From positions 35,701 through 99,700 of the forward strand of contig CAJXSR010000012.1 of assembly GCA_913061275.1 (NCBI GenBank): a stretch of DNA of 64,000 nt, written 5' to 3'. Within the stretch, counting starts at the first letter, position 1, and every line of letters begins with the position of its first letter. Positions 46,493-63,650 of this stretch are shown one piece after another. Source of the DNA: an uncultured Paracoccaceae bacterium (GTDB lineage Bacteria; Pseudomonadota; Alphaproteobacteria; Rhodobacterales; Rhodobacteraceae). The notes under the pieces are model-generated. The model ran no database searches and was not told the origin of the DNA. It saw only the letters and a list, made by a program, of their open reading frames with translations. The position numbers and the translations under genes are program-made.

Positions 46493-48154
46493 GGCCGAGG
46501 GTGTGTGAAAAGAGTTCTGCGTGGGTCTCTTTTGCCTGATGCCCGGTTGATTTTCAGTTTTAAATAAACTGGGCGTGATTTTGGATCGGTGGACGTCCTG
46601 TGGGGGTATATTGGCCGTGCTGCGTTGAGCAAAAGGAATTTGGGGTAGCATTAGCCCCTCAAACAGCCTTGATTGCTGCCATTAGCGAACCAAATCCAAT
46701 GATATTAAGAACCCGCTTGAAGTTGTAGGCTAGCACATGAAGGCTCATTTCGGTGGATACCTTTTCTCGCGTTCGGGTCAGAAAGTGGGTTGCTCCCATC
46801 CAGGCTTTTATAGTTCCGAAAGGGTGCTCAACTGTCGATCTGCGGATTGCCATGGCGTCAGGTTTTGCTTCCAGCCTGCGCTCAATGTCATCCAACACAT
46901 CCTCGTGTTCCCAACGCCGGATACGGCGCAGTTTTTCTGTCGTGCAGCGCGGCTTGAGGCGGCAGCTTGAACACGCAGTTAGATGCCGGTAGAAGTTCAC
47001 CTCGGTGCTTTGACGATCAGAACGATGAGCGCCCTTGGTTAGTTGCTGGCCTGCGGGGCAGATATAGACATCGTTCTCGACATCAAAGATAAAATCCTGC
47101 TTGATGAAAAACCCGCGTTTGGTACCGCTCGATGTTAACGGCTTGGGCACATAAGTTGTGATGCCATTGTTGGCGCATTCAAGCAGTTGTTCGCCGCTGT
47201 AATATCCCCGATCTGCAACAACGGTTACTTCCTCAGTTCCTGTTGCAGAGCGTGCCAGTTTTGACATCGGCGCCAATTGGCCCCGGTCGCTTCCTGAGGT
47301 TGCCACTTCATACGTCACGATTATATGGTGTTCAGCATCAACCGCAGCTTGAACATTATAGCCAACAATGCCTGATCCGCGGTGCCTCATTGAACGTGCA
47401 TCAGGATCGGTTAATGAGACCTGATTGTCAGGCGACTTTTGCATCTCTACTTCGATGGCTTTCAGTTCCACCATCTGCTCCTTGAGTTTGGCAATGCGTT
47501 CCTGCAACCGCTCAACCTTTGCCACGGGCATCGCAGGTTCGTTGCGGTCAGCGTCATCAAGTTTCGAGAGGTAGCGTGTTATACTTGCCTCGACATCCTC
47601 CATCCGCCGCTTCATCTTGGCAGGCGTAAAGTTTTTGTCACGATTGTTAACCGCTTTAAACTTTGAACCATCAATCGCTACGACACCGCCGTCCAATAAC
47701 CCCACTTGGCGGCATAGCATGACAAACTAGCTGCAGACCTTTTTAATAGCCTTGCCGTTATCTCGACGGAAGTCCGCAATCGTTTTGAAGTCCGGTGCAA
47801 GGCGACCAGTTAGCCACATCAACTCGACATTACGGCCAGCCTCCAATTCCAGTCGGCGACTCGAATGGATGCGGTGGAGGTAACCGTAGACATAAAGCTT
47901 CAGCAAAACCGATGGATGATAACCAGGACGCCCCGTATTCGCGGCACCCACAAAACCGATACCCAACAAATCAAGCGCATCAACAAAAGCATCAACCGCG
48001 CGAACCAGATTATCCTCACCAACAAAATCTTCAAGATGATCAGGAAAAAGCAACCCCTGTTCCCGATCAATACCTTCAATGAACCGCTTCATTAAAACTC
48101 TCCTGCTTACACAAAAACAATAACAGATTTACACGTTTTCACACACCCTCGGCC
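46493..48154 (-). mobile_element. IS1182-family insertion sequence (about 1.66 kb)
   Basis: The ends are perfect 19-bp inverted repeats: GGCCGAGGGTGTGTGAAAA at 46493-46511 and its complement at 48136-48154. Between them lies one leftward transposase reading frame that an amber codon interrupts. No flanking target duplication is evident (TTCC on the left, CTAA on the right), so flanking DNA may have been lost after insertion. Left and right neighbours are both gene remnants: an unknown C-terminus and an amidase C-terminus. Confidence 0.9.
46659..48092 (-). pseudogene. IS1182-family transposase interrupted by an in-frame TAG
   Basis: The N-terminal part (48092 to 47727) has the family's DUF772 start: FPDHLEDFVGEDNLVRAVDAFVDAL and NTGRPGYHPSVLLKLYVYGYL. 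It ends KKVCS then TAG at 47727-47729. The same frame continues FVMLCRQVGLLDGGVVAIDGSKFKAV and carries the DDE core: Asp in AIDGSKFKA, Asp in VVADRGYYSG and Glu in STVEHPFGTIKAWMG. The expected residue at the stop is probably Gln, so CAG to TAG explains it. Without suppression the transposase should be inactive. Confidence 0.88.
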
Positions 48155-48626: not shown

Positions 48627-50237
48627 ATGGCAGATACGGGTTGTAGAAAAGTACCTAAACGGGCCGAAATAGTGATCGTAGGTGCTGGTTTCGCTGGCAT
48701 GTACTTGCTTAAGTTGATGCGTGACAACGGGTTCGACGCCGTGGCGCTAGAGCAAGGCGGCGGCGTGGGGGGAACTTGGTATTGGAATAGGTACCCAGGT
48801 GCGCGGTGCGATATAGAATCGATGCAGTACAGCCATAAGTACCTGCCCGAACTCGAACAGCAATGGAATTGGTCGGAACGATATGCCGCCCAGCCCGAAA
48901 TCCTCGCATATGCCAACGAGATTGCGGATCGGTTGGAAATTCGCAGCAACATCTGTTTTGAACGGCAGGTGACTGCGGCACACTATGATGAAGCCGCCCA
49001 AGAATGGGAAATTAACTGCAGCACGGGCGAAACTGTGTGCGCGCGTTTCTACATTATGGCAACGGGGTGCCTTTCGGTGCCTAATCAAGTGGACTTCCCT
49101 GGCATGGCCAGTTTTACTGGGCCCACCTACCAAACTGGTCAATGGCCACACGTTCCCGTGGACTTCACTGGCCAACGTGTGGCGGTGATCGGAACAGGGT
49201 CATCTGCAATCCAGTCTATCCCACAAATCGCGAAACAAGCAGCCGAGTTGACTATTTTTCAACGCACGCCCAACTACGCAGTACCCGCAAAAAACAGAGC
49301 ACTTGACGAGGCAGAACGGGCCGAGATCAAAGCTCAATACGCAAACCTACGCAGGGAACAGGCCGAAAGCTTTGCCAACATTGCGGGTGGCCTGCCATTG
49401 GGTAAAGCCGCCGACACAACTTATGAAGAACAATGGGATGAATATCAGCGCCGTTGGGACGAAGGTGGCATTCTCTTCAACGGGGCCTTCAGGGACGCCA
49501 TGTTCGACAAGACGGCCAACGAAATTGCCGCAAAGTTCGTACGTGCAAAAATTCGCGAAACAGTCAACGATCCCGCAACTGCTAATCTGCTATGCCCGAC
49601 CAATACCCTAGGGGCCAAACGGCTTTGCGTTGATATCGACTACTTTGAAACCTACAACCTGCCGCATGTGCACTTAGTGGATATCTCAAAAAATCCTCTA
49701 TCTATCACGCCCGAGGGTTTGAAAATGGATGGCAAAACCTATGAGGCCGATGCCATCGTTTATGCTACTGGTTTCGATGCAATGACAGGGGCACTCTTAC
49801 GTGCCAACATCTGCGGGCGTAAAGGCAAACCGCTACATGACCATTGGGCCGAAGGACCGCGCACCTATTTGGGCCTTGCTATCAACGGCTTCCCAAACCT
49901 CTTCACTGTAACAGGCCCCGCCAGCCCCTCGGTATTTACCAACATGCTTCCGACGATTGAACAGCACTGCGAGTGGATCACCGATTGCATTTGCACCTTG
50001 CGAGAGAAAGGTCAGGTTGAGATCGAAGCCGAGTTAGATGCCGAAAACTCCTGGATGGAGCATAACCGAAAAGTAGGCGAAGCACATCTACGATCCTCAT
50101 CCGCGAGTTGGTACACAGGCGAAAACATCAAAGGTAAACCCGTTGGTTTCATGCCCTATATCGGCGGGTTTCCAAAGTACCGAGATAAATGTGAAGAGGT
50201 CGTTTCTAACGGTTATCATGGTTTTCGCACCATCTAA
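48627..50237 (+). CDS. Baeyer-Villiger-type flavin-containing monooxygenase
   Basis: 536 residues. The FAD Rossmann motif is IVGAGFAGMYLLK near residue 16, followed by VGGTWYWNRYPGARCDIES, characteristic of cyclohexanone-monooxygenase-like enzymes. The NADPH motif VIGTGSSAIQSIPQIA is near 187. The Baeyer-Villiger fingerprint F-x-G-x3-H-x3-W-P is present as FTGPTYQTGQWP at 163-174, but the central His is Gln169. The substitution may alter activity; N-oxygenation or an altered ester insertion is possible. It heads the rightward peptide locus, 274 bp before the next gene, and could tailor its product. Confidence 0.88.
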   Translation: MADTGCRKVPKRAEIVIVGAGFAGMYLLKLMRDNGFDAVALEQGGGVGGTWYWNRYPGARCDIESMQYSHKYLPELEQQWNWSERYAAQPEILAYANEIADRLEIRSNICFERQVTAAHYDEAAQEWEINCSTGETVCARFYIMATGCLSVPNQVDFPGMASFTGPTYQTGQWPHVPVDFTGQRVAVIGTGSSAIQSIPQIAKQAAELTIFQRTPNYAVPAKNRALDEAERAEIKAQYANLRREQAESFANIAGGLPLGKAADTTYEEQWDEYQRRWDEGGILFNGAFRDAMFDKTANEIAAKFVRAKIRETVNDPATANLLCPTNTLGAKRLCVDIDYFETYNLPHVHLVDISKNPLSITPEGLKMDGKTYEADAIVYATGFDAMTGALLRANICGRKGKPLHDHWAEGPRTYLGLAINGFPNLFTVTGPASPSVFTNMLPTIEQHCEWITDCICTLREKGQVEIEAELDAENSWMEHNRKVGEAHLRSSSASWYTGENIKGKPVGFMPYIGGFPKYRDKCEEVVSNGYHGFRTI

Positions 50238-50510
50238 TCTGGCACGCGATGATAACTTTTGCTTGGTGAATGTAAAGCGGGTAACGACGCTAATACATTA
50301 CAGTCAAGCGGATGGTTTCTGGGTTTATTTAACAATGCCGAAAGGCCTTTTGTGTAGTCATCCAACAAAATTGGATATTCGCACAAGAACAGCCAACATT
50401 GCCAGACAAGACCAGTAGGTTGATTGTTGACACTCTCGTTCATTTCTTTGTACACATTCAAAACATTTTGGCGCGATGTGGTAGTATTTAGCACAGTAGA
50501 GAGATTACTT

Positions 50511-51797
50511 TTGGCCAAGTTCACCACTGATATTCAAGCAAATGTAGCTTCAGGAAAAAAGCGTTTTATCCAATCTTTGTTGTTTACGCTTGTACAGGGT
50601 CTACAGCCTTTCTTGTTGACCATTATCGTGGCATCCATCACCGTGCCAGCGGAGTTTTCAATCTATCGTTACGTATTAATCTCTCTGAGTGTTTTGGTGA
50701 TGTTTGCTAATCCAGGATTTCAAATTACAGCCACCCGAATGTTCGCAAGCTATGATGTAAACGCATCAGATCAGGTCGCGCCGTTGGCATTTACCTGGTT
50801 GTTATCTTTAACTTTTTCAGCAGTAACCGCGGTGGTCATTCTTGTGTTACCGCAAACAATTTTTGCTGTCGAAGGCCATGTTCCAGTAGGTACTTTGGCG
50901 TTGTTGTTATCGACGGTGGCGGCACAAGCTGTACCGCGCGGAGCACTTATTGGAAAAAGACGGTTGGATCTTGTTTTGATCGCCGATGTTATTGGTTTGA
51001 TAACCGTAATTTTGGGCACATGGTTCGCCGCACGAACCTATTCCTATCATGGGGCCCTGTTGGCGTTGGCTTCTTCCAATATAGTAGTGCTGATATTTTT
51101 ATCGACAGCGTTGCTTCGTTTGGAAACATTGAAACGAATGCATATAAACTTGAAGCTCGCCAACGGTAAATCGCATCTAAAAAAAATTGTCGTTCAAACT
51201 CTGCCGCTAGGGGTATCTAGCCTAGCATATGCAATCATGCTTTGGATGATTTCTGGGCTGCTTTTAGAGCAATACAAAGACCCGCTGGTCTTCGCCGTTT
51301 ATAGTATTGGTGTTCAATGGTTTATGCTTGCCAATATTCTTAGCAAGGTTTTGTGCCCAGTACTGTTACCTGACGCTTCGCGCGAAATGTCCGGTGGAAA
51401 GTTAGGTGCCCAAGACAAAAATCATAAGCGCCTACTTTTTGCTTGCGTTGCAGTGGGGCTGTTCGTCATTTGTCTTGCACTAATAACAAGCTTTGCTGGG
51501 CCGCTCTTAATTGGTTTATACAGTGATAAATATGCAGGGTACGAAAATATTTTGACAGTATTTGTCCTTGCGGCACTGCCAATGGCACTTCTGAGTGTTG
51601 TTGGCATACAAGCCGTCGCGGTAAATGCTCAGCGCATCTGGATGATGGCAGCGTTAGTACAATTAGTTGTCGCGGTAATCGTGACATGGGCAAGAATAGA
51701 TCTAGGGGCCATAGCGGGTGCCTTGGGGCTGGCCATCGGTGCTTGCGCTGCGATGGCCATCATCGTATTTCATCTGAAAAGGAAACGTTTGTTGTGA
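50511..51797 (+). CDS. MOP-superfamily flippase (polysaccharide/peptide exporter-like)
   Basis: 428 residues from a TTG at 50511 with GAGAG 7 nt upstream; a TTG 87 bases earlier would add a tail unlike the family. Twelve membrane spans begin with LLFTLVQGLQPFLLTIIVASI. Proteins of this shape move lipid-linked oligosaccharides or, in peptide clusters, export the product or its intermediate. No MATE-specific residues were recognised. Its stop overlaps the next gene's GTG by 4 bp, so it is in the same operon as the HupE/UreJ-like gene and the synthetase genes. Confidence 0.8.
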   Translation: MAKFTTDIQANVASGKKRFIQSLLFTLVQGLQPFLLTIIVASITVPAEFSIYRYVLISLSVLVMFANPGFQITATRMFASYDVNASDQVAPLAFTWLLSLTFSAVTAVVILVLPQTIFAVEGHVPVGTLALLLSTVAAQAVPRGALIGKRRLDLVLIADVIGLITVILGTWFAARTYSYHGALLALASSNIVVLIFLSTALLRLETLKRMHINLKLANGKSHLKKIVVQTLPLGVSSLAYAIMLWMISGLLLEQYKDPLVFAVYSIGVQWFMLANILSKVLCPVLLPDASREMSGGKLGAQDKNHKRLLFACVAVGLFVICLALITSFAGPLLIGLYSDKYAGYENILTVFVLAALPMALLSVVGIQAVAVNAQRIWMMAALVQLVVAVIVTWARIDLGAIAGALGLAIGACAAMAIIVFHLKRKRLL

Positions 51798-52987
51798 TTG
51801 AGGTCAATAGATTACTTTGGATTTGTACTTTTTTTGCATTGGTCTTTGGCATTGGTATCTTTAATCCAAATGCTGCAAAAGCTCACAATTTAAACGAAAC
51901 ATACATCTATGTCGACGTTAAGGAGGCAGAAGTGTCTGGCCGTATCGAAATGCGGCGAGCGGATTTAAATATTGCCTTCACGTTAGATATAAACGGCGAT
52001 GGTGAGGTTCCAGATGCAGAAATAGAAGCGGCCAAAGAGCGGATATTCAGTGCATTTAATAAAAGTCTAACCTTTGACATATCTGGTATTGTTCCAAAAA
52101 TCACGTTTACCCACACCACTAACCTTGGCGAGGGTATTAATGGTTTTGTATTGTTTCATTTTGACCTCGATTATAAGGGGCCAATACCTGATGAGATTGG
52201 CGTCAAGTATCAAAGCACTTTCAGTCAAGCTCTGATCGGGCATAGTGCTATGGTCATTCTGCATAGCAATTATCGTACCGGGCTAGACAAAAATGAAGCC
52301 TCGGTTAGTCACATTTTTTCAAGCGGCTCTGAAACCGCCCATATCAATCTTTTGGGTGAAAAACCATGGTCAGTATTTGGACGCTTCGTAAAGTTAGGTT
52401 TTTGGCACATTCTGATTGGCTTTGACCACGTTGCTTTTCTGCTGGCGTTGCTTCTGCCATCAATCTTGATTGCGCGTGCCAACATCTGGCATCCTGCTGA
52501 TACTGTGCGTGAAGCGGGGTGGTCCATTGTTAAAATAGCGACGACGTTTACGGTTGCACATTCAATAACGCTATCTTTAGCCGCGCTTGGGGTTTTCGTG
52601 CCATCGGTAACAATAATCGAAAGCTTGATCGCCCTATCTATCGTTGCCGCCGCCGCTTTAAATATCTTTGCCGTCCGTCCTGCACTGACCCTTCCCATTG
52701 TTTTTGCATTGGGATTGTTGCACGGTTTTGGGTTTTCATACGTAATGGAGCCACTTGGGGTAGCACGTCAGACACTTGTCCAATCACTTATTGGCTTCAA
52801 CATCGGGGTCGAATTGGGGCAGCTTTCAATCATCACCCTCGTCTTTCCTGTTTTGTTTATATTGCGACGTCAACGATGGTACCTACCCGTCATCCTTCGC
52901 GGGGGGTCTCTATTGTTGATCGCAGTCGCATGCTATTGGTTTGGTGCCAGAGCAATTGTTCTTCTTCAATCATTACTACAGATTTAG
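51794..52987 (+). CDS. HupE/UreJ-like membrane protein
   Basis: 397 residues from the GTG at 51794, overlapping the flippase stop (GTGA). A signal peptide or first span ending in AAKAHN is followed by a periplasmic domain (about 30-190) with DINGDGEVPDAEIEAA, an EF-hand-like loop. Then come about six membrane spans with GFWHILIGFDHVAFLLALLLP, FTVAHSITLSLAALG and GLLHGFGFSYVMEP, whose His/Asp residues are the HupE/UreJ_2 signature. Relatives carry nickel or cobalt or have unknown roles. In an NRPS operon it may handle a metal bound by the product. Confidence 0.85.
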   Translation: MIEVNRLLWICTFFALVFGIGIFNPNAAKAHNLNETYIYVDVKEAEVSGRIEMRRADLNIAFTLDINGDGEVPDAEIEAAKERIFSAFNKSLTFDISGIVPKITFTHTTNLGEGINGFVLFHFDLDYKGPIPDEIGVKYQSTFSQALIGHSAMVILHSNYRTGLDKNEASVSHIFSSGSETAHINLLGEKPWSVFGRFVKLGFWHILIGFDHVAFLLALLLPSILIARANIWHPADTVREAGWSIVKIATTFTVAHSITLSLAALGVFVPSVTIIESLIALSIVAAAALNIFAVRPALTLPIVFALGLLHGFGFSYVMEPLGVARQTLVQSLIGFNIGVELGQLSIITLVFPVLFILRRQRWYLPVILRGGSLLLIAVACYWFGARAIVLLQSLLQI

Positions 52988-52999
52988 GTGGGATGCGTA

Positions 53000-54625
53000 A
53001 TGACTGAAAAAATGACTTCCTCCAGCGACCTTTTTGAAGGAACAATTCCCGAAGTTCTAATGCGTTCTGCTAAGAGACACCCGCATAAGGATGCCTTCAT
53101 CTGCGGAACTGACCATCTAACCTATGCCACCACCGTACAACGGATGAGACAGCTTGCTGGCGTTTTGATGCGGATGGGTTTAGGGCGCGGGGATCGCGTA
53201 GCAATTTATTTGAACCAATCACTTGAAAGCGCCATCGCGATCTACGGAGTGATGCACGCAGGCGCAGCCTTTGTACCAATTGATCCGAACACACCGTTAG
53301 ATAGAATGCGCACCATTCTTGAAGAATGCGACATCCGACACATTATTAGCCATGAACCAAAACGTGCGGAACTTGTAGAATTGTTAAGGGCCCCAAATAA
53401 AATTGAGGCGGTTGTTGGTGTAACCGATCTGGCTAACATAACCACTTTTGGCTGGGATGCATTGCCCGCAGAAGATGCGTTCGACGGGCCTATCATCACA
53501 TCAGAAGATTTATCCTACATTATGTGGACCTCTGGGTCGACTGGTAAACCTAAAGGGATGACACATGTACATCGCAACGGGTTGATTTACGCAGGTATGC
53601 TGGCAGAAACACATGATCTGCGTGCATCTGACCGATTTCTAGGATTGTCGCCACTACATTTCGATATGTGTGTGATGGATTATATTGCCGCTTCGTTAGT
53701 TGGGGGAACTACAATCATCGTACCTGAAAGCGTGGCCAAGCTTCCCGCTGCAGTTGTCAGGCTTGCCGCCGAACAAAAAACAACAATCTGCTATACCGTG
53801 CCCTTCGCAATGATACAAATGTTGCGCTTAGGTGCAATGGAACAACATGACCTGACGGCTATAAGGTGGATGATTTTTGGCGGAGAGAATTTTCCTGCAG
53901 CACAGCTGCGCGCTATTATGGAACAGTTGCCCAATGCACGTTTCGCAAATGCCTTTGGCCCCGCGGAAACACATCAAATTTCGTCGTTCACAATTGAAAA
54001 ACCCCCTGAGGACGGAGAGCTGATTTCAGTGGGCCGCCCTTGGCGAACACTTGAAGCACTAATTTTGGACGATGATGATCAACCCGTTGCAAACGGCGAA
54101 GTTGGTGAACTTTTAGTGCGCAGCCCCAGCCAGATGCTTGGTTATTGGGGCGATGCGGAACGCACAAATGAGGTTTTACATCGTAGGCATCTTGCGGGAA
54201 CACTTGAGCAGACATTTTACCGCACGGGCGATCTGGTTCAGATGGATGAATGTCAATTGATGTATTTTATTGGTCGTAAGGGCCGGCAGATCAAGTTGCG
54301 TGGTTTCAGGATCGAACTTGATGAGATTGAGGCGGTACTCTGCGCGGTTTCTGGTGTCAGCGAAAGTGCCGTAATGAGCGATGCCTCGAATACATATCTT
54401 ATAGGTTTTGTTCTGGGCGCGTCTGATGTTACACTCGAAACTTCAATACTTATGAAAGCTTGTCGTAACACTCTTCCCCCACAGGCCGTACCAAAAGTAT
54501 TACATATCTCGACGGCGTTCCCTCGGACAGGGACAGGAAAAATAGATCGCAAAGCGCTTCTATCATCTTTGGCCCCCCTACCCGCGCACATAATTGATAC
54601 AAAAAATAACAAGGCAGACCTCTGA
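53000..54625 (+). CDS. Stand-alone amino acid adenylation enzyme (AMP-dependent ligase)
   Basis: 541 residues from the ATG at 53000, with GGTGGGA just upstream; the preceding stop is 13 bp away. All adenylation motifs are present: A3 WTSGSTGKPKG, A5 NAFGPAETHQ, A7 YRTGDLVQ, A8 GRKGRQIKLRGFRIELDEIE and the A10 Lys in GTGKIDRKAL. No carrier or condensation domain is fused, as in PltF/RedM-type enzymes that charge a separate carrier protein. The carrier gene follows with a 4-bp overlap. The eye-aligned binding-pocket residues (D, M, M, Y, I, G, A, Q, I) match no code I know. It probably loads the first residue of the peptide. Confidence 0.88.
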   Translation: MTEKMTSSSDLFEGTIPEVLMRSAKRHPHKDAFICGTDHLTYATTVQRMRQLAGVLMRMGLGRGDRVAIYLNQSLESAIAIYGVMHAGAAFVPIDPNTPLDRMRTILEECDIRHIISHEPKRAELVELLRAPNKIEAVVGVTDLANITTFGWDALPAEDAFDGPIITSEDLSYIMWTSGSTGKPKGMTHVHRNGLIYAGMLAETHDLRASDRFLGLSPLHFDMCVMDYIAASLVGGTTIIVPESVAKLPAAVVRLAAEQKTTICYTVPFAMIQMLRLGAMEQHDLTAIRWMIFGGENFPAAQLRAIMEQLPNARFANAFGPAETHQISSFTIEKPPEDGELISVGRPWRTLEALILDDDDQPVANGEVGELLVRSPSQMLGYWGDAERTNEVLHRRHLAGTLEQTFYRTGDLVQMDECQLMYFIGRKGRQIKLRGFRIELDEIEAVLCAVSGVSESAVMSDASNTYLIGFVLGASDVTLETSILMKACRNTLPPQAVPKVLHISTAFPRTGTGKIDRKALLSSLAPLPAHIIDTKNNKADL

Positions 54626-54873
54626 TAGACAACACAATAATATCGCGGAAATTTGAAAGCTTTCTTGCAAGTTCCGAAATGGCCGGACGTTCTGTCGCCC
54701 ATGACGAAGATTTGTTGATGACAGGTGCTTTGGACAGCTTAAGCGTTGCGCGCCTTATCACTTTTATCGAAACACGCTTTGAAATAACGGTTCCCATTGC
54801 TGATGTTTTACCCGAAAACATGGGCACTATTGATGCGCTGACCTCCTATATAATTTCGAAAAATACAATCTGA
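54622..54873 (+). CDS. Stand-alone acyl/peptidyl carrier protein
   Basis: About 83 residues. The phosphopantetheine Ser lies in GALDSLSVARLITFIE (Ser39 from the proposed start), followed by the helix II-III pattern ending DALTSYII. There is no ATG early enough; the internal ATG at 54679 would remove helix I (ISRKFESFLASSEMA). The likeliest start is a CTG at 54622 overlapping the upstream stop, with AAGG 7 nt before it; ATA at 54625 is an alternative. The stop overlaps the NRPS start as TGATG. It receives the amino acid from the adenylation enzyme and presents it to the first condensation domain. Confidence 0.8.
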   Translation: MIDNTIISRKFESFLASSEMAGRSVAHDEDLLMTGALDSLSVARLITFIETRFEITVPIADVLPENMGTIDALTSYIISKNTI

Positions 54874-57800
54874 TGTTAAAGCGTATCATTCATCTTAATC
54901 GAACTCAGCGTTCACTTCTCGCATCGCATCTTGCTAACCCGAATAAAGGGCATCAAAATGCAGCACTTGTTGTTCGTATAGGCGGCAAGGTAGATCCCAG
55001 AAAACTAAAGCAGGCTTTTGGCAAAGTTGTTATGGCTTCTGATGCTCTGCGTACGTTGATTAAGGGTAGCAATGACACCCAAGTCGCGATTTCTGATGTG
55101 GTCCCGGTTCCCACTGAAGTTGTTGAACAAGATCAAGAGGAATTTGAAATCTGGGCTAAGAGCCGAGCAGCACATGCTATGGATCTTGCACAGGGTTGTT
55201 ACGACAGCCGCATCGCACGGCACAAAGACGACTCTGTGAGTTGGTTTATTAATATCCATCACATTATTAATGACGCATATTCAGCTAAGACCGTATTACA
55301 AAAAGTTGAAGAAGCCTATGAAGGGGGTGCAATTTATGTTCCCTCATATTATCAAGAAAATCCTTTCGAGAACGCAGCCGTTGCAAACAAGACTATTGCT
55401 TATTGGCAAGACCTGCCGCCAACTGAAAAGCTTGAACGGCTCTATGATCATACATTTCAGGGGGATGGCTCGGCTTTAAACATCACTCTTAAAGGTGTTT
55501 CTCCGCAGGTACAAAATGCTTTAAAACAAGACTACAAACTTCTAACCCCAATGCTAAGTGAAACTGTATTTTGGGCGTTTTGCTGTGCGGCTTATTTATA
55601 CCGTATTTCAGAGGCAGAAGAATTTACTATCGGGATGACTGTCAGTCATCAAGCGCACAAAGAATTTCGCGACTCAATAGGCCCAATGTTCGAAATATTT
55701 CCAGTCCCTATTTCAGTCCCTTCAGATGCCACATTCCAAAGCCTACATGCAGAAGTTGCCAAATCAGTTATGACTACTTTGGGGCATGCTCATGTGGGGT
55801 CTGCCCCGACAACGGAGATGAGCGCAGTAGTAAACATCATTCCTTCTTCTGCAATGCTTGAAAGTTTTTTGGGCCATCCTGTTTCAATCAGCTATCTGCA
55901 ATCTGGTGCTATCGATCCAGCTCATGCTTTACGCTTTCACGTTAGCCCTTATGCTGCTGACGTCGACACGCCAGGACCTACTTTGTCACTGGATATCGCG
56001 CGTGACGCAGCCGGTAGCTGCAATCCCGACAAAATCAAAGGGCACTATGAGCGGTTGATTGAACTGGCTGCTACCAACCCCAATGCGGTCATCAAAGATG
56101 TTGATATCTTGTCTTCCGATGAACATGACAAGCTTGCGAATTGGTCCAAGCCCACTACCAAGCCAAAATCACTTATATTGGTCGATCGGCTTAGATCAAC
56201 ACTTGCAGATAATTCCAAGATTGTTTTGACCGAAGACGACAAACAGTTAAGCGGAGCCGATCTTTGGCTGTGGGCACAGGCAGTTGCCACATACCTTGAA
56301 CAATCGAATGCGCCCGTGCGGGTTGGTGTGGAACTTCGCCCATCAATTTCTGCCGTCGTTGCTATTTTTGGCGTCGCTATTTCCGGACGGTCATTTGTTC
56401 CGATTGCTACCGATTTACCGGATGAAAGACGCGCAGTAATTGTCCGCCAAGCTAAACTAGAACTGATCTTTGATGATCCAGCAATGATAGAAAGGTTAAA
56501 AGACGGGCCTGTTTTAACCTTACCAACACCACAGCAAGACGCAGAAGCCTATGTTCTATTCACTTCAGGATCAACAGGCACACCGCGTGGTGTTCCGATT
56601 ACCTTTCAAGGGCTAGAAGCATATCTAACGCATGCACTATCAAACTATTTCAAGCATGTAGAGCACCCTGTTGTGCCGCTCTTTGGTTCGCTCGGCTTTG
56701 ATCTTACACTGACCTCACTTTTTGCGCCAATATTGGCCGGGGGTGAAATAATTGCCTTCCCAGACCATCCTGCCGTCGCCATGTGGCAAATAGCGGCTGA
56801 GGGCCGCATCAACTGGATGAAAGCCACACCATCGCATTTAGACTTATTTCTACGTTCACTCGCTGGAACACACGGTTTACGTACTGTTATCGTAGGTGGC
56901 GAAGCGTTCGCGACATCTTTAGCACATGCAATGATTGATCGCTCTGGAAACAAAACTATTCAACTATTGAACGAATATGGCCCGACCGAAACAGTTGTAG
57001 GCTGTATGCTACACGAAGTAACAAATGATGACCTGAAAAACACTAGTACCATCCCTATTGGTTGCGCCATTTCTGGGGTCGGACTTAAGATAATGGATGG
57101 TTTTGGGCACCCTGTGTCTCTAGGCGCATTGGGTGAGCTATGGATCACGCATGACACCATTTTTGCACACTATCTCGACCACTCGCCAGCGGCATCAGGC
57201 ATAAATATCCACGATCAGCACAAGTACTATCAATCAGGTGATCTGGTTCAAATTAACGATGATGGGGTAATGTTTTATCAGGGCCGCATTGACGAACAAC
57301 TCAAAATCGGCGGTGTTCGCATCGACCCAGTCGAAATTGAAACGGCACTTATGTCCCATCCTGAAATAGAACAGGCGGTTGTTCGAAGTTGGCACCCAAC
57401 AAACGCGCAAATTAAAGCCAGCTGTGTAAGATGTGGTCTTCCTGATACAGTCCCTGACCACGGGATAAACGATGCCAGCGTGTGTAAGACATGTATCGAC
57501 TATGATAAGATACGCGATCAAGCGCAAATATGGTTTAGATCACCTGACGAACTGCAAGACATTTTAACATCCGCAGGAAGACATACAAAGACCACACAAC
57601 CAGTGATGCACCTTCTGAGCGGCGGTAAAGACAGTACTTATGCGCTCTACCGATTGGTTGATATGGGGTGCCGCCCTTATGTCGTGACATTAGACAACGG
57701 TTTTGTTTCCGAAGGCGCAAAAGACAACATTGACCGCGTTATCGCGCATCTTGGCCTTGAACACGAATACCTAACGACACCATCCATGAACGAGATATTT

Positions 57801-60800
57801 AGGGATAGTCTTACCCGTTATTCTAATGTCTGTAACGGTTGTTACAAAACAATATATACGCTCGCTACCAACCGCGCAAACGAGCTGGGTATCCCTGTAA
57901 TCATCACGGGGCTTTCGCGAGGCCAGCTATTTGAAACGCGCCTTGCGCCGCAACAGTTTTCCAACGCATCCTTTGATTCATCAGAGATTGATCGCGCTGT
58001 GCTAGCCGCACGCAAACGCTATCATCGGGCGGATGATGTAATATCCCAACTACTCGACACTTCAGCATTTGAAGATGACAAGCTTTTCGAAAACATAGCC
58101 TATGTTGATTTCTACCGATATGTAGACGTTCCTATTTCCGAGGTCATAGATTACCTTACACACAAAACCGACTGGAAGCGGCCAACAGATACTGGCCGTT
58201 CAACTAATTGCTTGGTAAATGAAACGGGCATTCACACCCACATTGCTGAACGCGGCTTTCACAATTATGCCATCCCCTATGCCTGGGATGTTCGCCTAGG
58301 TCACAAAACCAGAGCCGAGGCAATGGAAGAACTGAACGATGTGTTTGATTTACCGCGAATTTCGGATCAACTTGAACAAATCGGGTATAAACCAAATGAC
58401 CGATCTATTCTGACAGCGTGGTTTATACCGCGAAAAGACAGGTCTGATACAACCCCCTCATCATCTGATCTACGCTCATTTCTTGCCGATATCTTGCCAG
58501 CACATGCCATCCCGCAAAGTTTCACCCCTGTTGCATCCATCACCCTTACAGCAAATGGCAAGGTTGATTTTACTACTCTGCCAGTGCCCGCACGCACGGT
58601 GCAACCGCGTGTGGATGTTCTTGCACAAGCAGTCACGCCGTTACAGGAAACCATCGTGACCGAATGGGAACGCATTTTGGGCCAGTCCCCCATTGGTCTA
58701 GATGACGATTTTTTTGTCTTGGGGGGCGACAGCCTGCTTGCGATCAATATGGTTTTTCAACTTCAAAACAAACTTGATCGCCACATATCAGACAGTTTTG
58801 CCTTCCAGTTTACCACCCCACGCTCACTAGCAGAAGTGCTTGATAACCTTACTGCGGTAGCTTCGTCAAAACCAGACTTGGGCGAAATATCGGCCTTAGA
58901 TAACACAGAAATTGCGCCAGAAATGACCGCATTAGAAGAAGCCATCTTTCTTGACCAAAAAACCCGCCCTGATGCCCTACATTATAATGTAGGTCGCATT
59001 TTCTACCTGCCTGCGTCAGTGTCATCGGAACATCTAGTAAACGCCATACAGAAGTTTGCGGCACGCACTAAGCCACTTTTCTGGAGCTATGGTAGCACCC
59101 GCCACCGATTGGATGAAAATCACCTAGTCGAAATCACCACAGAAACCTTAACTTGTAGGCGTGAAGATTTAGAAGAAAGCCACGCCAATTTATTGGTAAA
59201 GGCGTTTGACCTAAAAAACGGGCCATTATTGCGTGCGGCAATTCAACCGTTGAACGACGGAGAAATAGCTCTTTTGGTGATGGCGCATCATGTTACTTGT
59301 GATCACGCCAGTTTCAACGTGTTAATGCAAGAAGTTGCGACCTATATCGAAACCGGTGCTTTTTCCGGTGATGCGCCTGATCATGCATCGGTTTTTTGTG
59401 AAGCGTTTCCAGATAACGACCCCGAAAGTAACTTATTCTGGAGTGATAGAATTTTCACCACTCCGTCGCCATTGCGCACTCAAAGCCTATGCAACACGTC
59501 CCCGCAGGGCAAATATTTAGAATGGCCAGTGTCGCTTCCTGTGGCAACCAGCAATAGCGGCACAACAATGGCCGCCCGTGCTTTGGCGGCTGCAGCGACT
59601 GCAATTTCACCTTTTCTTGAAGGCCAAACCGTTGATCTTGGTCTTGTCACTGGGCGTGAAACGGAAATTGGGTCGCGCGTATTTGGCGGGCTTATTAACA
59701 CAGTGCCGATTGAGCTAAGCATTAAACCTAGAGATACCATCCAAAAGTTTACAAAGACGATACAGCAGACAATGGGTGAAGTCCTTGCAAATCGCAAAGC
59801 GCCTCTAACGAAAATCGTAGAGTTACAAAGGGCCGCAGGTAAGAATTTTTCGGTGCCGCGCTTTCTTGTTTCTGTAGTCGAGCCTGGAAAGGCTAAACTA
59901 GGATCACACATGATAAGTGATGGTCATCTGCACGCGGGCGGTGCCGTACGCCCAATAACGCTTTTCGTTGTTACATCTCCCAACGACCTACGTCTCGGCA
60001 TAGAGTATGATCGTGGAATGATTTCAGATGTTGTGGCCGCACAAGTTTCCGATATGTTTACTGCAGCCTTCCTTGCGGCATCTAATCGGGCACCTCGAAC
60101 ACTCGAAACCCTTACTCAAGATGTATCTAAGCCAAGCAAAGTGATAGCGAAGCCGCTAAATGACAAAACACCGATTTTGGCGCAAATTTTAAGCGCAGCG
60201 ACGCGCGACCCGTCGGCGCTGGCAATAGTTTCCACATCTGTCGACTGGAATTGGAACGCGCTTATTGCACACGCTGAAGCAATTTCAGCGCAGTTACACG
60301 AGCGTGGAATTCAACCCGCTGATCGCATTGCAATCGCATTGGAACGTGGGCCGCTATATTTGGCGGCGATCTTAGCCAGTATGGGCCACGGGGTTGGATA
60401 TGTTCCGTTAGACATAGGCTATCCTGACAGCCAAATTTCCCGCACCCTTAGCGAAGCTAAGCCGCGACTTGTACTACGGCATACTGGTGACGGTATGATT
60501 ATCACAGATGCAGGCATCGACGGTATACCCTGGGATGAATTAAGTCGCACACCCCTTCAACAACAAGACCCTGAAACGGTCGCCTACACTATGTTCACAT
60601 CGGGTAGCACAGGCACACCTCTGGGTGTACCCATCACTCATGGGCAGCTGGCACATAGTACTAATGCAAGGGTTCAAACCTATACGCATTCACCTAGGCG
60701 GTTTGCGCTTCTTTCAAGCTTGGCCTTTGATAGCTCTGTTGTAGGGGTTTTTTGGACTTTGGCCACTGGGGGTACGATTGTAATCCCAGACAAAAACGAA

Positions 60801-63650
60801 ATGCGCGACCCTAAGTTTCTGTCCACTTTGCTAGCAACAGGGGCTGATACTGTTTTGCTAGTGCCAACTCTTTACGATGTTCTGCTTGATCTTGCTATGT
60901 CAGAAAAATGGCCTGACACGGTCATTCTAGCAGGTGAGGCATGCCCAACATCGGTGGCTGAAAAGCATTTCTCATTATTCAAAGCTTCCACGCTTACCAA
61001 TGAATATGGCCCAACCGAGGGCACTGTGTGGGCACTTTATCACCATATTAGCCCAACAAATAAGGCTATACCCATTGGCTTACCTGTGCCAGAATGTTGG
61101 GCCGCAGTGGTTGACGAAACAGGTATGATCTTACCTGCTGGAGTTAAAGGCGAACTTGTGATTGGCGGGCCGCAAATAACCAAAGGTTATATCGGTGGCA
61201 AAGCGCAAGATGCTAAACGGTTTACTAGGCCCAACGGGACCACACTACCAGAGGGGCCATTGTTCTTCACAGGTGATAAAGCTGTTTTTAATGGTGAACA
61301 TTTCGAATTCCTCGGGCGAGCTGATGATCAGATAAACATCGGGGGTATTCGGCTTTCACCTATCCCATTAGAAACCGAATTGATGAAGCAATCAGGCGTG
61401 CAAACCGCTGTTGTTGTCGCTTTTGATAAACACAATGAAGAAGGTACCACTGTTGCCGACGATATTTCTTCGGATGCTGTGATGGTGGCACACTTAGAGA
61501 CCTCAAAGCAAGGTCTTGATGCACAGCTGCGCGAAGCAATGGCGCATAATTTTCCGATTGGTCAAAGGCCTGCACATTACGTTTATCACAATCAATTTCC
61601 ACGATTACCAAACGGGAAAATTGATCGTCGAAAATTGACTTCGATGGCCCCTCGCCCGTTGAGTAAGCCCCTTAAATCCTACAACGATACAGACGCTCAG
61701 GAATTTTCAATAAAACCGCATGCTGACTTGGAAACGCTCGTTTTATTGTGTTGTGAAACTCTTAACTCGACAACTTTTAATGCAAACGACAATTTTTTTG
61801 AGCACGGTGGATATTCGCTTGTGGCACTTAGATTGCTGCTAAAAATTGAGGATGTCTTTCAAGTTACTCTTTCTACCGCAACAATTTATGAGGAACCTAC
61901 GCCTAGGGGTTTTTATGCAAAATACCTCGCCAATTCAGATAGCAATACCAGCTTGGTAAATAAATCGGTGCTCGGCCCAAAACCTTTTGTCGTCCCGTAC
62001 AATAGCAAAGGCACTGGTGCCGCTTTCTTTGCGATACACAGTTTGGAAAAAAATGGAGCGCTATTTAGAGGCTTTGCAAAAAATCTATCCACTGAACACC
62101 CATTCTACGGTGTAGGAGAAAGTGGCGCGGTCAGCTTAAACTCTAATTGGGTGTCAAACTCAGACGGGCCCACAGAGGTTGCTGATCAAGCTGCTATCTA
62201 TGTTGAAGAAATACTTAATCTCAAACCGTCTGGGCCGTTGGTCATTACAGGCTCTTGCTTGGGGGCCCTTTACGCTTACGAAGTAGCACAACAACTGTCA
62301 GCGCGAGGACGGCAACCTGATCTATTGCTTTTGCTTCACGACTTACATGCGCCATACATCGGCACACGGGAGTTGCATCGTAGGGAAATGTGGTTTCGTA
62401 AAAGGCTTTCACAATTACACAAAAACGGACTGCGTTCAATTCCCCGGTTTATCCAAAAACTACCTGCACTGGCTTCACGTTCTAAAGCGAATTTGACGCG
62501 TCAAATTGAGATACTTTATCTCAAGCGGGCGAAAGCAAATGGAAAGGAGTTGTCTAAACGCATGAGGGATCGTGATTTTGTTGAACGCTCTTATCTGTCC
62601 TCCAAACAATATACATATGAACCTTACGCTGGCCGAACACTCATCGTCCGAGATCCAGACAATACGTTTTACGACCCTGAGTCCCCGACAAGTGGGTGGG
62701 ATAGCTTATTACCAGATAGTAACTATTATTTTGTACAAACTAAGGGCTTTAACTCGATGTTCCAAGAACCTGTGATCGGCAAAGTAGTGGCACAGGTAGA
62801 AGGTGAGCTTTCTAACGTTAAAGCTAATAATAGCCATGCTGTCACTGCACCTCGAATTCAGGCCGGATTCAAGCACAAGATTACGTTAGATATCACGGAT
62901 GATAATTTTGTTGCGGCCCCCCGTAGCGCACAGCGTGATTGGCTCTTACGGCAACGTCTTCGCGAGCTATCACAAGACCTAGATCACCTTGATGGGGAAG
63001 CCCATAATATGGTCGCCGCGACTGGCGCAATAGAGATGAATGATCGCGCCCATATAGAACTCTCACCCGACGAGATCATGGAGGATTGGCAGATCCCACT
63101 TATGAAACGTATGGCCGAGGTTATAGCAGGCCCTGGGGGGCATATTCTTGAAATTGGATTTGGGCGCGGCATCCTGTCGGATTTCGTCCAAAGCCACAAT
63201 GTTCAATCTCATACGATTGTGGAATGTAATCCGCATGTCATTGCGGACTTCCACAAATGGAAAGCTTGTCAAGGCGACCGTGATATCCGTTTAATCGAAG
63301 GGCGGTGGGAAGATGTTGCAGAACAGTTTGGTTTATATGATGGCATTCTGTTTCACACCTATCCACTAGACGAAGAAGAGCTAATTGAAGCATTGGCGAC
63401 AACCACAACTTTTGCTGAAACATTCTTTGCCACAGCTTCTAAAAGCCTCAAACTTGGCGGACGCTTCACTTATTTCACCAATGAGGCAGACAGCCTAAGT
63501 CGCGGACATCAACGTGCGCTCCTTGATCATTTTGGGCGGTTTTCAATATCAAGCTTAAATGACTTAAACATTCCAGATCACACTGCCGATGCCCACTGGT
63601 ACAATACCATTACTGTCGTTGAGGCTATCAAAACGGTGCTGACTGAATAG
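54873..63650 (+). CDS. Nonribosomal peptide synthetase, C-A(PP-loop insert)-T-C-A-T-TE-methyltransferase
   Basis: 2925 residues. C1 (1-420) has its HHxxxD at 129-134. A1 runs from about 430 to 1240: FTSGSTG at 563, binding-pocket Asp610, A8 GRID at 804, and the A10 Lys in ANGKVD near 1229. A PP-loop domain (about 850-1165) interrupts it between A8 and A9. T1 has Ser1287. C2 has HHxxxD at 1472-1477. A2 has FTSGSTG at 1908, Asp1953 and Lys2249. T2 has Ser2315. The TE (about 2375-2655) has Cys2462 as nucleophile, Asp2490, and Phe2626 where His is expected. The end is a GAMT-like methyltransferase with LEIGFGRG at 2759-2766. C1 has no fused donor module, so the preceding carrier protein supplies the first residue. 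The predicted product is a tripeptide, tailored on the line. Confidence 0.95.
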   Translation: MLKRIIHLNRTQRSLLASHLANPNKGHQNAALVVRIGGKVDPRKLKQAFGKVVMASDALRTLIKGSNDTQVAISDVVPVPTEVVEQDQEEFEIWAKSRAAHAMDLAQGCYDSRIARHKDDSVSWFINIHHIINDAYSAKTVLQKVEEAYEGGAIYVPSYYQENPFENAAVANKTIAYWQDLPPTEKLERLYDHTFQGDGSALNITLKGVSPQVQNALKQDYKLLTPMLSETVFWAFCCAAYLYRISEAEEFTIGMTVSHQAHKEFRDSIGPMFEIFPVPISVPSDATFQSLHAEVAKSVMTTLGHAHVGSAPTTEMSAVVNIIPSSAMLESFLGHPVSISYLQSGAIDPAHALRFHVSPYAADVDTPGPTLSLDIARDAAGSCNPDKIKGHYERLIELAATNPNAVIKDVDILSSDEHDKLANWSKPTTKPKSLILVDRLRSTLADNSKIVLTEDDKQLSGADLWLWAQAVATYLEQSNAPVRVGVELRPSISAVVAIFGVAISGRSFVPIATDLPDERRAVIVRQAKLELIFDDPAMIERLKDGPVLTLPTPQQDAEAYVLFTSGSTGTPRGVPITFQGLEAYLTHALSNYFKHVEHPVVPLFGSLGFDLTLTSLFAPILAGGEIIAFPDHPAVAMWQIAAEGRINWMKATPSHLDLFLRSLAGTHGLRTVIVGGEAFATSLAHAMIDRSGNKTIQLLNEYGPTETVVGCMLHEVTNDDLKNTSTIPIGCAISGVGLKIMDGFGHPVSLGALGELWITHDTIFAHYLDHSPAASGINIHDQHKYYQSGDLVQINDDGVMFYQGRIDEQLKIGGVRIDPVEIETALMSHPEIEQAVVRSWHPTNAQIKASCVRCGLPDTVPDHGINDASVCKTCIDYDKIRDQAQIWFRSPDELQDILTSAGRHTKTTQPVMHLLSGGKDSTYALYRLVDMGCRPYVVTLDNGFVSEGAKDNIDRVIAHLGLEHEYLTTPSMNEIFRDSLTRYSNVCNGCYKTIYTLATNRANELGIPVIITGLSRGQLFETRLAPQQFSNASFDSSEIDRAVLAARKRYHRADDVISQLLDTSAFEDDKLFENIAYVDFYRYVDVPISEVIDYLTHKTDWKRPTDTGRSTNCLVNETGIHTHIAERGFHNYAIPYAWDVRLGHKTRAEAMEELNDVFDLPRISDQLEQIGYKPNDRSILTAWFIPRKDRSDTTPSSSDLRSFLADILPAHAIPQSFTPVASITLTANGKVDFTTLPVPARTVQPRVDVLAQAVTPLQETIVTEWERILGQSPIGLDDDFFVLGGDSLLAINMVFQLQNKLDRHISDSFAFQFTTPRSLAEVLDNLTAVASSKPDLGEISALDNTEIAPEMTALEEAIFLDQKTRPDALHYNVGRIFYLPASVSSEHLVNAIQKFAARTKPLFWSYGSTRHRLDENHLVEITTETLTCRREDLEESHANLLVKAFDLKNGPLLRAAIQPLNDGEIALLVMAHHVTCDHASFNVLMQEVATYIETGAFSGDAPDHASVFCEAFPDNDPESNLFWSDRIFTTPSPLRTQSLCNTSPQGKYLEWPVSLPVATSNSGTTMAARALAAAATAISPFLEGQTVDLGLVTGRETEIGSRVFGGLINTVPIELSIKPRDTIQKFTKTIQQTMGEVLANRKAPLTKIVELQRAAGKNFSVPRFLVSVVEPGKAKLGSHMISDGHLHAGGAVRPITLFVVTSPNDLRLGIEYDRGMISDVVAAQVSDMFTAAFLAASNRAPRTLETLTQDVSKPSKVIAKPLNDKTPILAQILSAATRDPSALAIVSTSVDWNWNALIAHAEAISAQLHERGIQPADRIAIALERGPLYLAAILASMGHGVGYVPLDIGYPDSQISRTLSEAKPRLVLRHTGDGMIITDAGIDGIPWDELSRTPLQQQDPETVAYTMFTSGSTGTPLGVPITHGQLAHSTNARVQTYTHSPRRFALLSSLAFDSSVVGVFWTLATGGTIVIPDKNEMRDPKFLSTLLATGADTVLLVPTLYDVLLDLAMSEKWPDTVILAGEACPTSVAEKHFSLFKASTLTNEYGPTEGTVWALYHHISPTNKAIPIGLPVPECWAAVVDETGMILPAGVKGELVIGGPQITKGYIGGKAQDAKRFTRPNGTTLPEGPLFFTGDKAVFNGEHFEFLGRADDQINIGGIRLSPIPLETELMKQSGVQTAVVVAFDKHNEEGTTVADDISSDAVMVAHLETSKQGLDAQLREAMAHNFPIGQRPAHYVYHNQFPRLPNGKIDRRKLTSMAPRPLSKPLKSYNDTDAQEFSIKPHADLETLVLLCCETLNSTTFNANDNFFEHGGYSLVALRLLLKIEDVFQVTLSTATIYEEPTPRGFYAKYLANSDSNTSLVNKSVLGPKPFVVPYNSKGTGAAFFAIHSLEKNGALFRGFAKNLSTEHPFYGVGESGAVSLNSNWVSNSDGPTEVADQAAIYVEEILNLKPSGPLVITGSCLGALYAYEVAQQLSARGRQPDLLLLLHDLHAPYIGTRELHRREMWFRKRLSQLHKNGLRSIPRFIQKLPALASRSKANLTRQIEILYLKRAKANGKELSKRMRDRDFVERSYLSSKQYTYEPYAGRTLIVRDPDNTFYDPESPTSGWDSLLPDSNYYFVQTKGFNSMFQEPVIGKVVAQVEGELSNVKANNSHAVTAPRIQAGFKHKITLDITDDNFVAAPRSAQRDWLLRQRLRELSQDLDHLDGEAHNMVAATGAIEMNDRAHIELSPDEIMEDWQIPLMKRMAEVIAGPGGHILEIGFGRGILSDFVQSHNVQSHTIVECNPHVIADFHKWKACQGDRDIRLIEGRWEDVAEQFGLYDGILFHTYPLDEEELIEALATTTTFAETFFATASKSLKLGGRFTYFTNEADSLSRGHQRALLDHFGRFSISSLNDLNIPDHTADAHWYNTITVVEAIKTVLTE
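57423..58370 (+). other. PP-loop ATPase (adenine nucleotide alpha hydrolase) domain embedded in the first adenylation domain
   Basis: Residues 851-1165 of the synthetase. Two CxxC pairs (851/854, 871/874) resemble a zinc finger. The PP-loop SGGKDS is at 916-921, followed by YVVTLDNGFVSEGAKDNIDRV, a stretch close to N-acetyl-sugar amidotransferases (PseA/WbpG/LegG). A further CNGC (987-990) and Cys1113 give a CxxC...C set like the cluster or sulfur-carrying cysteines of TtuA/NcsA tRNA thiolases. The late HIAERGFHNY...HKTRAEAMEEL also fits the sugar amidotransferase family. A1 sequence resumes at SILTAWFIP near 1178. Confidence 0.85.

Follow-up and report, generated by a model that had tools for sequence, protein, structure and literature searches.

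A putative sulfur-inserting PP-loop domain nested in an adenylation domain of a widespread nonribosomal peptide synthetase family

Adenylation (A) domains of nonribosomal peptide synthetases (NRPSs) can be interrupted between motifs A8 and A9 by auxiliary enzymes, and the inserts named at this site in the review passages considered here are methyltransferases, oxidases, monooxygenases and (keto)reductases (PMC11355689, PMC8949500). Here we describe an NRPS of an uncultured Paracoccaceae bacterium (GenBank assembly GCA_913061275.1, contig CAJXSR010000012.1, positions 35,701 to 99,700; this 64,000-nucleotide stretch is hereafter the window, and all cluster features given below lie on its plus strand) in which the first A domain (A1) harbors a PP-loop enzyme that likely transfers sulfur. 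The original prediction for this locus knew of no PP-loop amidotransferase or thiolase at this site; none is named in the review passages, and in literature searches covering titles and abstract openings no paper was listed on an A domain interrupted by a PP-loop or sulfur-inserting enzyme, the 2020 catalogue of such interruptions lying outside the comparison. The consulted part of PMC2922099, where PP-loop and nonribosomal peptide synthetase are both mentioned, describes no PP-loop insert in an A domain, and passages of PMC8097286 and PMC9259500 contain nothing that bears on the subject.

Several PP-loop enzymes, summarized here from excerpts of the cited papers, provide the points of reference. 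The N-acetyl sugar amidotransferases (NASATs) are defined by a CXXC...CXXC tetracysteine and an SGGXDS motif (PMC10607449). Among the sulfur insertases, LarE of T. maritima carries a catalytic [4Fe-4S] cluster on a CXXC-C motif, with a non-core sulfide proposed as the donor, and residue 176 of L. plantarum LarE is a sulfur-donating cysteine (PMC9283937); three-cysteine clusters are also found in TtuA and CxxC-C MnmA, and TtcA requires its cluster (PMC8584467). CtaC, of closthioamide biosynthesis, is an Fe-S PP-loop enzyme that forms thioamides only on the carrier-bound substrate and whose activity is lowered by mutation of C154, C157 or C284; in 2019, closthioamide was described as the only bacterial nonribosomal peptide of the thioamide type then known (PMC6772006).

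The insert and its distribution

The NRPS of 2925 amino acids (54873..63650) is the last long gene of the window, which ends together with its 99.7-kb contig, 350 bases 3' of the gene. The domain scan against Pfam yields the order C-A1-T-C-A2-T-TE-methyltransferase, where C, T and TE stand for condensation, carrier and thioesterase domains. A1 is interrupted within its C-terminal subdomain by a complete PP-loop domain (residues 839-1178, 57387..58406), which follows the A1 core with A8 (56190..57386) and precedes the remainder of the C-terminal subdomain with A9 and A10 (NGK; 58407..58622). The predicted structure of the insert (pLDDT 87.2, pTM 0.87) has a PP-loop fold, the closest known fold being the NASAT 8wex (LpNASAT); in the model of A1 together with the insert, both A subdomains are kept and two strands of the C-terminal one flank the insert, so that the A domain, as modeled, stays intact around it and is an interrupted A domain of the A8-A9 type. 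The placement of a PP-loop enzyme between A8 and A9, as originally proposed, is thus borne out by domain scan, motifs and structure models, and every motif position then named is found in the sequence: the zinc-type tetracysteine common to NASATs (C851-X2-C854...C871-X2-C874, 57423..57494), the PP-loop SGGKDS (residues 916-921, 57618..57635), the CNGC that supplies C987-X2-C990 (57831..57842) and Cys1113 (58209..58211), the last two forming a CXXC-C triad.

Any notion of the insert as a one-off is unsupported, since it belongs to a widespread family of homologs. When only the insert was used for searching and the length of the whole NRPS restricted the candidates to 1637, 647 proteins matched at E<=1e-3, of which 120 were listed. 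The cut-out insert as query matched 405 proteins, and the 120 listed among them are for the most part pieces of NRPSs of this type; the listed matches include 240 strong homologs. Scanning one genome per species detected at least 376 stretches that encode a relative (E<=1e-3; some could be NASATs). The best 80 of these, henceforth the 80 loci, all contain the insert open reading frame (ORF); 77 of them also have A8 upstream of it and 68 have A10 downstream, contig ends cutting some of the loci. The corresponding check of A motifs in proteins leaves out 21 of 196 for lack of one or both motifs. Judged by their record titles, the 80 loci represent about 13 phyla, including Actinomycetota (mostly Acidimicrobiia), Pseudomonadota, Bacteroidota, Cyanobacteriota, Verrucomicrobiota, Acidobacteriota, Planctomycetota, Chloroflexota, Gemmatimonadota, Myxococcota and Krumholzibacteriota.

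Within its own phylum, the full insert is rare, being present in one of the 398 sampled genomes, that of the window, and among the relatives in 2 of 61, the second being genome G037. The window NRPS scores 541 bits in the 398-genome scan, followed by NASATs at 90 bits or less that match the first half only, and no free-standing relative of the insert was detected in these genomes at E<=1e-15. In the phylogenetic tree, from which two asparagine-synthetase-like ORFs were excluded beforehand, 24 inserts and 15 NASATs are split by a single branch with 100/100 support, to be read with the possibility of long-branch effects in mind. The closest company of the window insert in this tree is a copy on a Paracoccaceae plasmid together with Acidimicrobiales, a grouping that suggests transfer between phyla.

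Sulfur against nitrogen

In the homolog alignment, C987 and C990 are invariant (241/241), as is C1113 (240/240). The exact SGGKDS motif is present in 235 of the 241 proteins and, when the other six are left out, the CxxC lies 71 residues past the PP-loop start in 232 and 72 residues past it in three; the tetracysteine is found in 174 of 176 inserts. The insert accordingly combines SGGXDS, a CXXC and a distant third cysteine, the hallmarks of CXXC-C sulfur insertases. Comparison of 27 inserts with 25 LarE proteins by hhalign (probability 98.2) places CxxC onto CxxC; the third cysteine is aligned only in the forced global comparison, where Cys1113 falls on the third cysteine of LarE. When the insert profile was run against the PDB, the best sequence match was the [4Fe-4S] LarE 8cnz (41 bits, E 9e-10), with the NASAT 8wex behind at 32.9 bits. 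In structural alignments with a LarE series that includes 5uds, Cys1113 coincides with residue 176 in 9 of 16 rows if the end is ungapped and is one or two residues off in 2; the remaining 5 run on and are uninformative. Profile and structure alignments agree in this respect, and the three cysteines may come together next to the PP-loop. The score against the LarE family TIGR00268 is 18.3 bits, below the cut-off of 150.

The substrate code of A1 was read by motif mapping in 194 insert-bearing A domains, pooled from 116 database proteins and 78 locus ORFs that partly overlap and include the window's own (DLTKIGEVGK). The pattern DLTK[VI]GEVG is found in 187 of these and one- or two-letter variants of it in the other seven. 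With DLTKLGEVGK as the Asn code and DLTKVGHIGK as the Asp code, all 194 readable domains appear to be of the Asn type, which backs the earlier guess of Asn as the substrate.

On these grounds, together with the CtaC-like cysteine spacing and the missing HisH/HisF neighbors described below, we give somewhat better than even chances to the insert being a cis-acting iron-sulfur sulfur insertase that converts the side-chain amide of carrier-bound Asn to a thioamide. Under this mechanism, A1 would adenylate Asn and load it onto the first carrier domain. The SGGKDS motif of the insert would then bind ATP, with which the amide oxygen would be activated in the form of an AMP-imidate. A [4Fe-4S] cluster held by C987, C990 and C1113 would carry a sulfide on its open iron, and displacement of AMP by this sulfide would give C=S. 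The predicted target is the side-chain carboxamide: no homolog read departs from the Asn-type code, and a backbone thioamide would need no such side chain. A starter acyl group, proline-derived in relatives and assumed to be so here, and His from module 2 would complete the peptide.

The most serious competitor, albeit an unlikely one, is an amidine synthetase that would replace the oxygen of the ATP-activated Asn side-chain amide with NH, yielding 3-amidinoalanine on the carrier, in the manner of NASATs. The insert indeed shares with NASATs both defining motifs and the fold, and TIGR03573 is the nearest full-length family for all 27 inserts compared. Furthermore, the C-terminal methyltransferase of the window NRPS (62940..63647), a relative of guanidinoacetate N-methyltransferase (GAMT) by sequence match, belongs to a guanidine-methylating family. 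However, the window insert matches TIGR03573 over positions 12-328 with 91.8 bits, far under the curated cut-off of 203.2, and the GAMT-like domain is present in just 2 of 121 long homologs (the window NRPS included), besides 5 related loci. The NASATs themselves were taken from 40 fetched regions, with 36 ORFs that have SGGxDS and the tetracysteine and six regions without an SGGxDS ORF that were examined separately: 34 of the 36 ORFs lack a CxxC plus Cys at the site of the triad, and no CxxC was found in the six further regions (SGGKDG or unread forms), whereas the triad is present in all aligned inserts. Of the 36 free-standing NASAT ORFs, 29 have relatives of HisH and HisF, neighbors with a role in ammonia supply, encoded no more than about 5 kb away, as do 5 of the 6 added regions (34/42 in total). 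With the same queries, even at E 1e-3, HisH/HisF were detected in none of the 80 insert loci, nor in the G037 cluster (L123-L124) or window positions 40001-64000. Amidotransferase activity by default was therefore rejected: the NASAT match is clear, yet the family label was not taken as chemistry given that 34 of 36 NASATs lack the CxxC plus Cys and most are close to HisH/HisF.

Two free-standing members of the NASAT family, L205 and L211 (L100), do carry a post-PP-loop CxxC and a later Cys, and for L211 no HisH/HisF is found within about 5 kb; these two may use sulfur even though their family carries an amidotransferase annotation. L205 also counts against the proposed sulfur chemistry of the insert: it pairs the triad with HisH/HisF, so the triad alone is not decisive.

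Replacement of oxygen with nitrogen or sulfur on a carrier-bound amino acid was put forward originally and still appears to be the right kind of chemistry; the choice between the two, then left open, now tips toward sulfur, given the invariant triad combined with the missing HisH/HisF. Sulfur transfer as such, at either position, is likely, a judgment made with more assurance than that on the side-chain thioamide in particular.

The other possible position is the backbone. A CtaC-like synthetase could install C=S at the peptide bond beside Asn, the Asn itself being incidental; CtaC targets backbone amides of carrier-bound substrates (PMC6772006) and its CXXC-C spacing is similar, with 127 residues from C157 to C284 compared with 123 from C990 to C1113. 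We consider this variant improbable, slightly more so than the amidine: such a reaction does not need the Asn-type code that is kept in 194 of 194 domains, and, in the review passages, methyltransferase inserts act on the carrier-bound amino acid, before the peptide bond exists (PMC11355689, PMC8949500). Still less probable is a nitrile synthetase that would dehydrate the Asn amide with ATP to beta-cyanoalanine, like QueC/ToyM and ArtA: the QueC zinc motif, C(x)8CxxCxxC in the excerpt consulted (PMC13329287), is absent from the insert sequence, and a dehydratase would not need an Fe-S-type triad. A structural or regulatory domain without chemistry of its own has nothing positive in its favor beyond the tolerance of A domains for insertions and is very hard to reconcile with a PP-loop and triad conserved in more than 230 sequences, which argues for catalysis.

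Gene neighborhood and a candidate metallophore

The domain scan maps the remaining parts of the NRPS to condensation domain 1 (residues 5-421, 54885..56135), the first carrier domain (58650..58838), condensation domain 2 (58920..60182, limits approximate), A2 (60195..61652) and a thioesterase match (62055..62420). The A2 code, DSVLIAEVWK, is of the His type: the pattern DS[AVP]L[IVMT]AE[VI]W is found in 165 of 172 A2-labeled domains, and DSALIAEVWK is discussed among His codes in the relevant passage of a 2025 survey (PMC12283262). Upstream lie a free-standing acyl carrier protein from the ORF listing (54679..54873; the true start is probably further upstream), a free-standing starter adenylation enzyme (52988..54625), a HupE/UreJ_2 membrane protein (51686..52987, PF13795, 135.5 bits; the annotated start is probably too early) and a candidate flippase/MATE-like exporter (50424..51797, PF01943, 29.0 bits against a cut-off of 28.2). 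An FMO-type flavoprotein identified by the domain scan (48627..50237) is of uncertain cluster membership; neither it nor the exporter has a counterpart among the neighbor families of related loci. The starter code of the window, DMMYIGAQIK, deviates from the family pattern D-x-[FLH]-[YF], found in 44 of 53 starter-labeled domains.

The neighbors were counted in the 45 loci whose genes extend beyond 19 kb: HupE/UreJ_2 (38), an A-domain-type ORF below 1300 amino acids (38), a TonB receptor (19), an acyl-CoA-dehydrogenase-type enzyme (18), a carrier protein (17), a His-rich small protein (16) and an ornithine-cyclodeaminase family member (10). Across all 80 loci, the counts are 49 for HupE, 43 for an A-domain-type ORF of 480-650 amino acids, 24 for the carrier-protein family and 18 for the His-rich family. 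HupE, the dehydrogenase, the cyclodeaminase and the TonB receptor are all absent from 14 control regions of 17-20 kb around insert-less NRPSs of the same genome and its relatives, a narrower group than the insert loci; control regions L087-L093 (about 3.4 kb) were dropped as too short.

All three dehydrogenases tested match the prolyl-ACP dehydrogenase 4irn best, followed by the L-prolyl-PCP dehydrogenase 5zw0, and for two starter A domains tested the L-proline--carrier ligase 6o6e is among the good, not the top, PDB matches; a proline-derived acyl starter is therefore likely in the relatives. In the window, the accessory parts in evidence are limited to the starter A domain, the carrier protein, HupE and a gene resembling an exporter. 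Its cluster contains no prolyl-ACP-dehydrogenase-like gene up to the contig end, and the best match in the same genome to the enzyme of a relative (35% identity) is on another contig, so a proline-derived starter is only assumed for this cluster. The absent parts may lie beyond the contig, which stops 350 bases past the NRPS.

A proline-derived acyl group, an amide-changed Asn and His, specified beside TonB and HupE genes, together suggest that the product is probably a proline-derived-acyl/thio-Asn/His peptide that acts as a metallophore. Two backbone amide nitrogens, the imidazole and a pyrrole or pyrroline nitrogen could form an ATCUN-like square site, with the thioamide sulfur as a soft donor. 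The HupE consensus retains an H-x5-DH motif of the kind regarded as a nickel-permease signature. The identity of the metal was also sought in regulation, an approach that was abandoned: no shared palindrome was found upstream of the operons, ten regulator boxes compared with shuffled sequence in 110 regions showed no clear enrichment (the Nur-type box was observed 4 times against 0.8 and the actinobacterial Zur box 10 times against 6 at the stricter threshold, too little to use), and no riboswitch was detected in the 7 of the 80 loci that were scanned. More speculatively, a single architecture in about 13 phyla could make a side-chain thio-asparagine in cis and flank it with His on one side and, on the other, a pyrrole or pyrroline acyl group that comes from proline, yielding a thioamide-armed, ATCUN-like N4/S ligand that is exported and recaptured via TonB receptors and HupE permeases. 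This reading as a whole, which would amount to a large unrecognized class of nickel, copper or cobalt metallophores, we regard as possible but doubtful.

Several further features were observed. Loci of Flavobacteriia (L076:11450-11920, for example) encode a His-rich protein of 145-165 amino acids, placed between the TonB receptor and the NRPS with the insert; the one scanned has no Pfam match. Some relatives have a next module whose A domain is itself broken at A8/A9 with a GAMT-like methyltransferase, either fused behind the first A half (L042 and L064:7361-16401) or encoded as a separate gene between the A halves (L033:12894-18630 and L043:12920-18717). In the window, a DDE transposase, apparently in two ORFs, lies directly upstream of the gene cluster (46659-48092). 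Farther away are a RACo-type activator (2145-4190) and an MttB-family methyltransferase (PF06253, 22757-24298) with an Rfam PYLIS_3 match at 23807-23906, probably a non-pyrrolysine MttB because the frame is open without TAG read-through.

Comparison with known systems

What appears to be new is an interrupted A domain whose insert unites the NASAT fold with the triad of sulfur insertases. Thioamides are rare in nonribosomal peptides. If the proposed chemistry is correct, the self-contained A-insert-T unit with its conserved Asn-type code would bring a sulfur insertase into the assembly line itself. It would offer a portable part with which thio-asparagine could be made, and hundreds of gene clusters could be recognized by it; the TonB/HupE context would connect thioamides with the uptake of metals in a nonribosomal system.

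Like KtzH, TioS, McyA and other interrupted A domains, A1 of the window nests an auxiliary enzyme between A8 and A9, but none of the inserts named in the review passages is a PP-loop enzyme. The NASATs (WbuX/WbpG, TIGR03573) resemble the insert in full-length homology, fold, tetracysteine and SGGKDS; the insert differs from them by its location inside an NRPS A domain, its CXXC-C triad, a score below the family cut-off, the lack of HisH/HisF and its separate clade. LarE, TtuA, NcsA and TtcA are free-standing enzymes that act on nucleotides or tRNA, whereas the insert has a longer spacing between the CxxC and the third cysteine. CtaC, compared by cysteine positions alone, is, like the predicted insertase, a PP-loop enzyme of the Fe-S type for a carrier-bound substrate with three similarly spaced cysteines; unlike the insert, it is a separate protein that belongs to an NRPS-independent pathway and modifies backbone amides.

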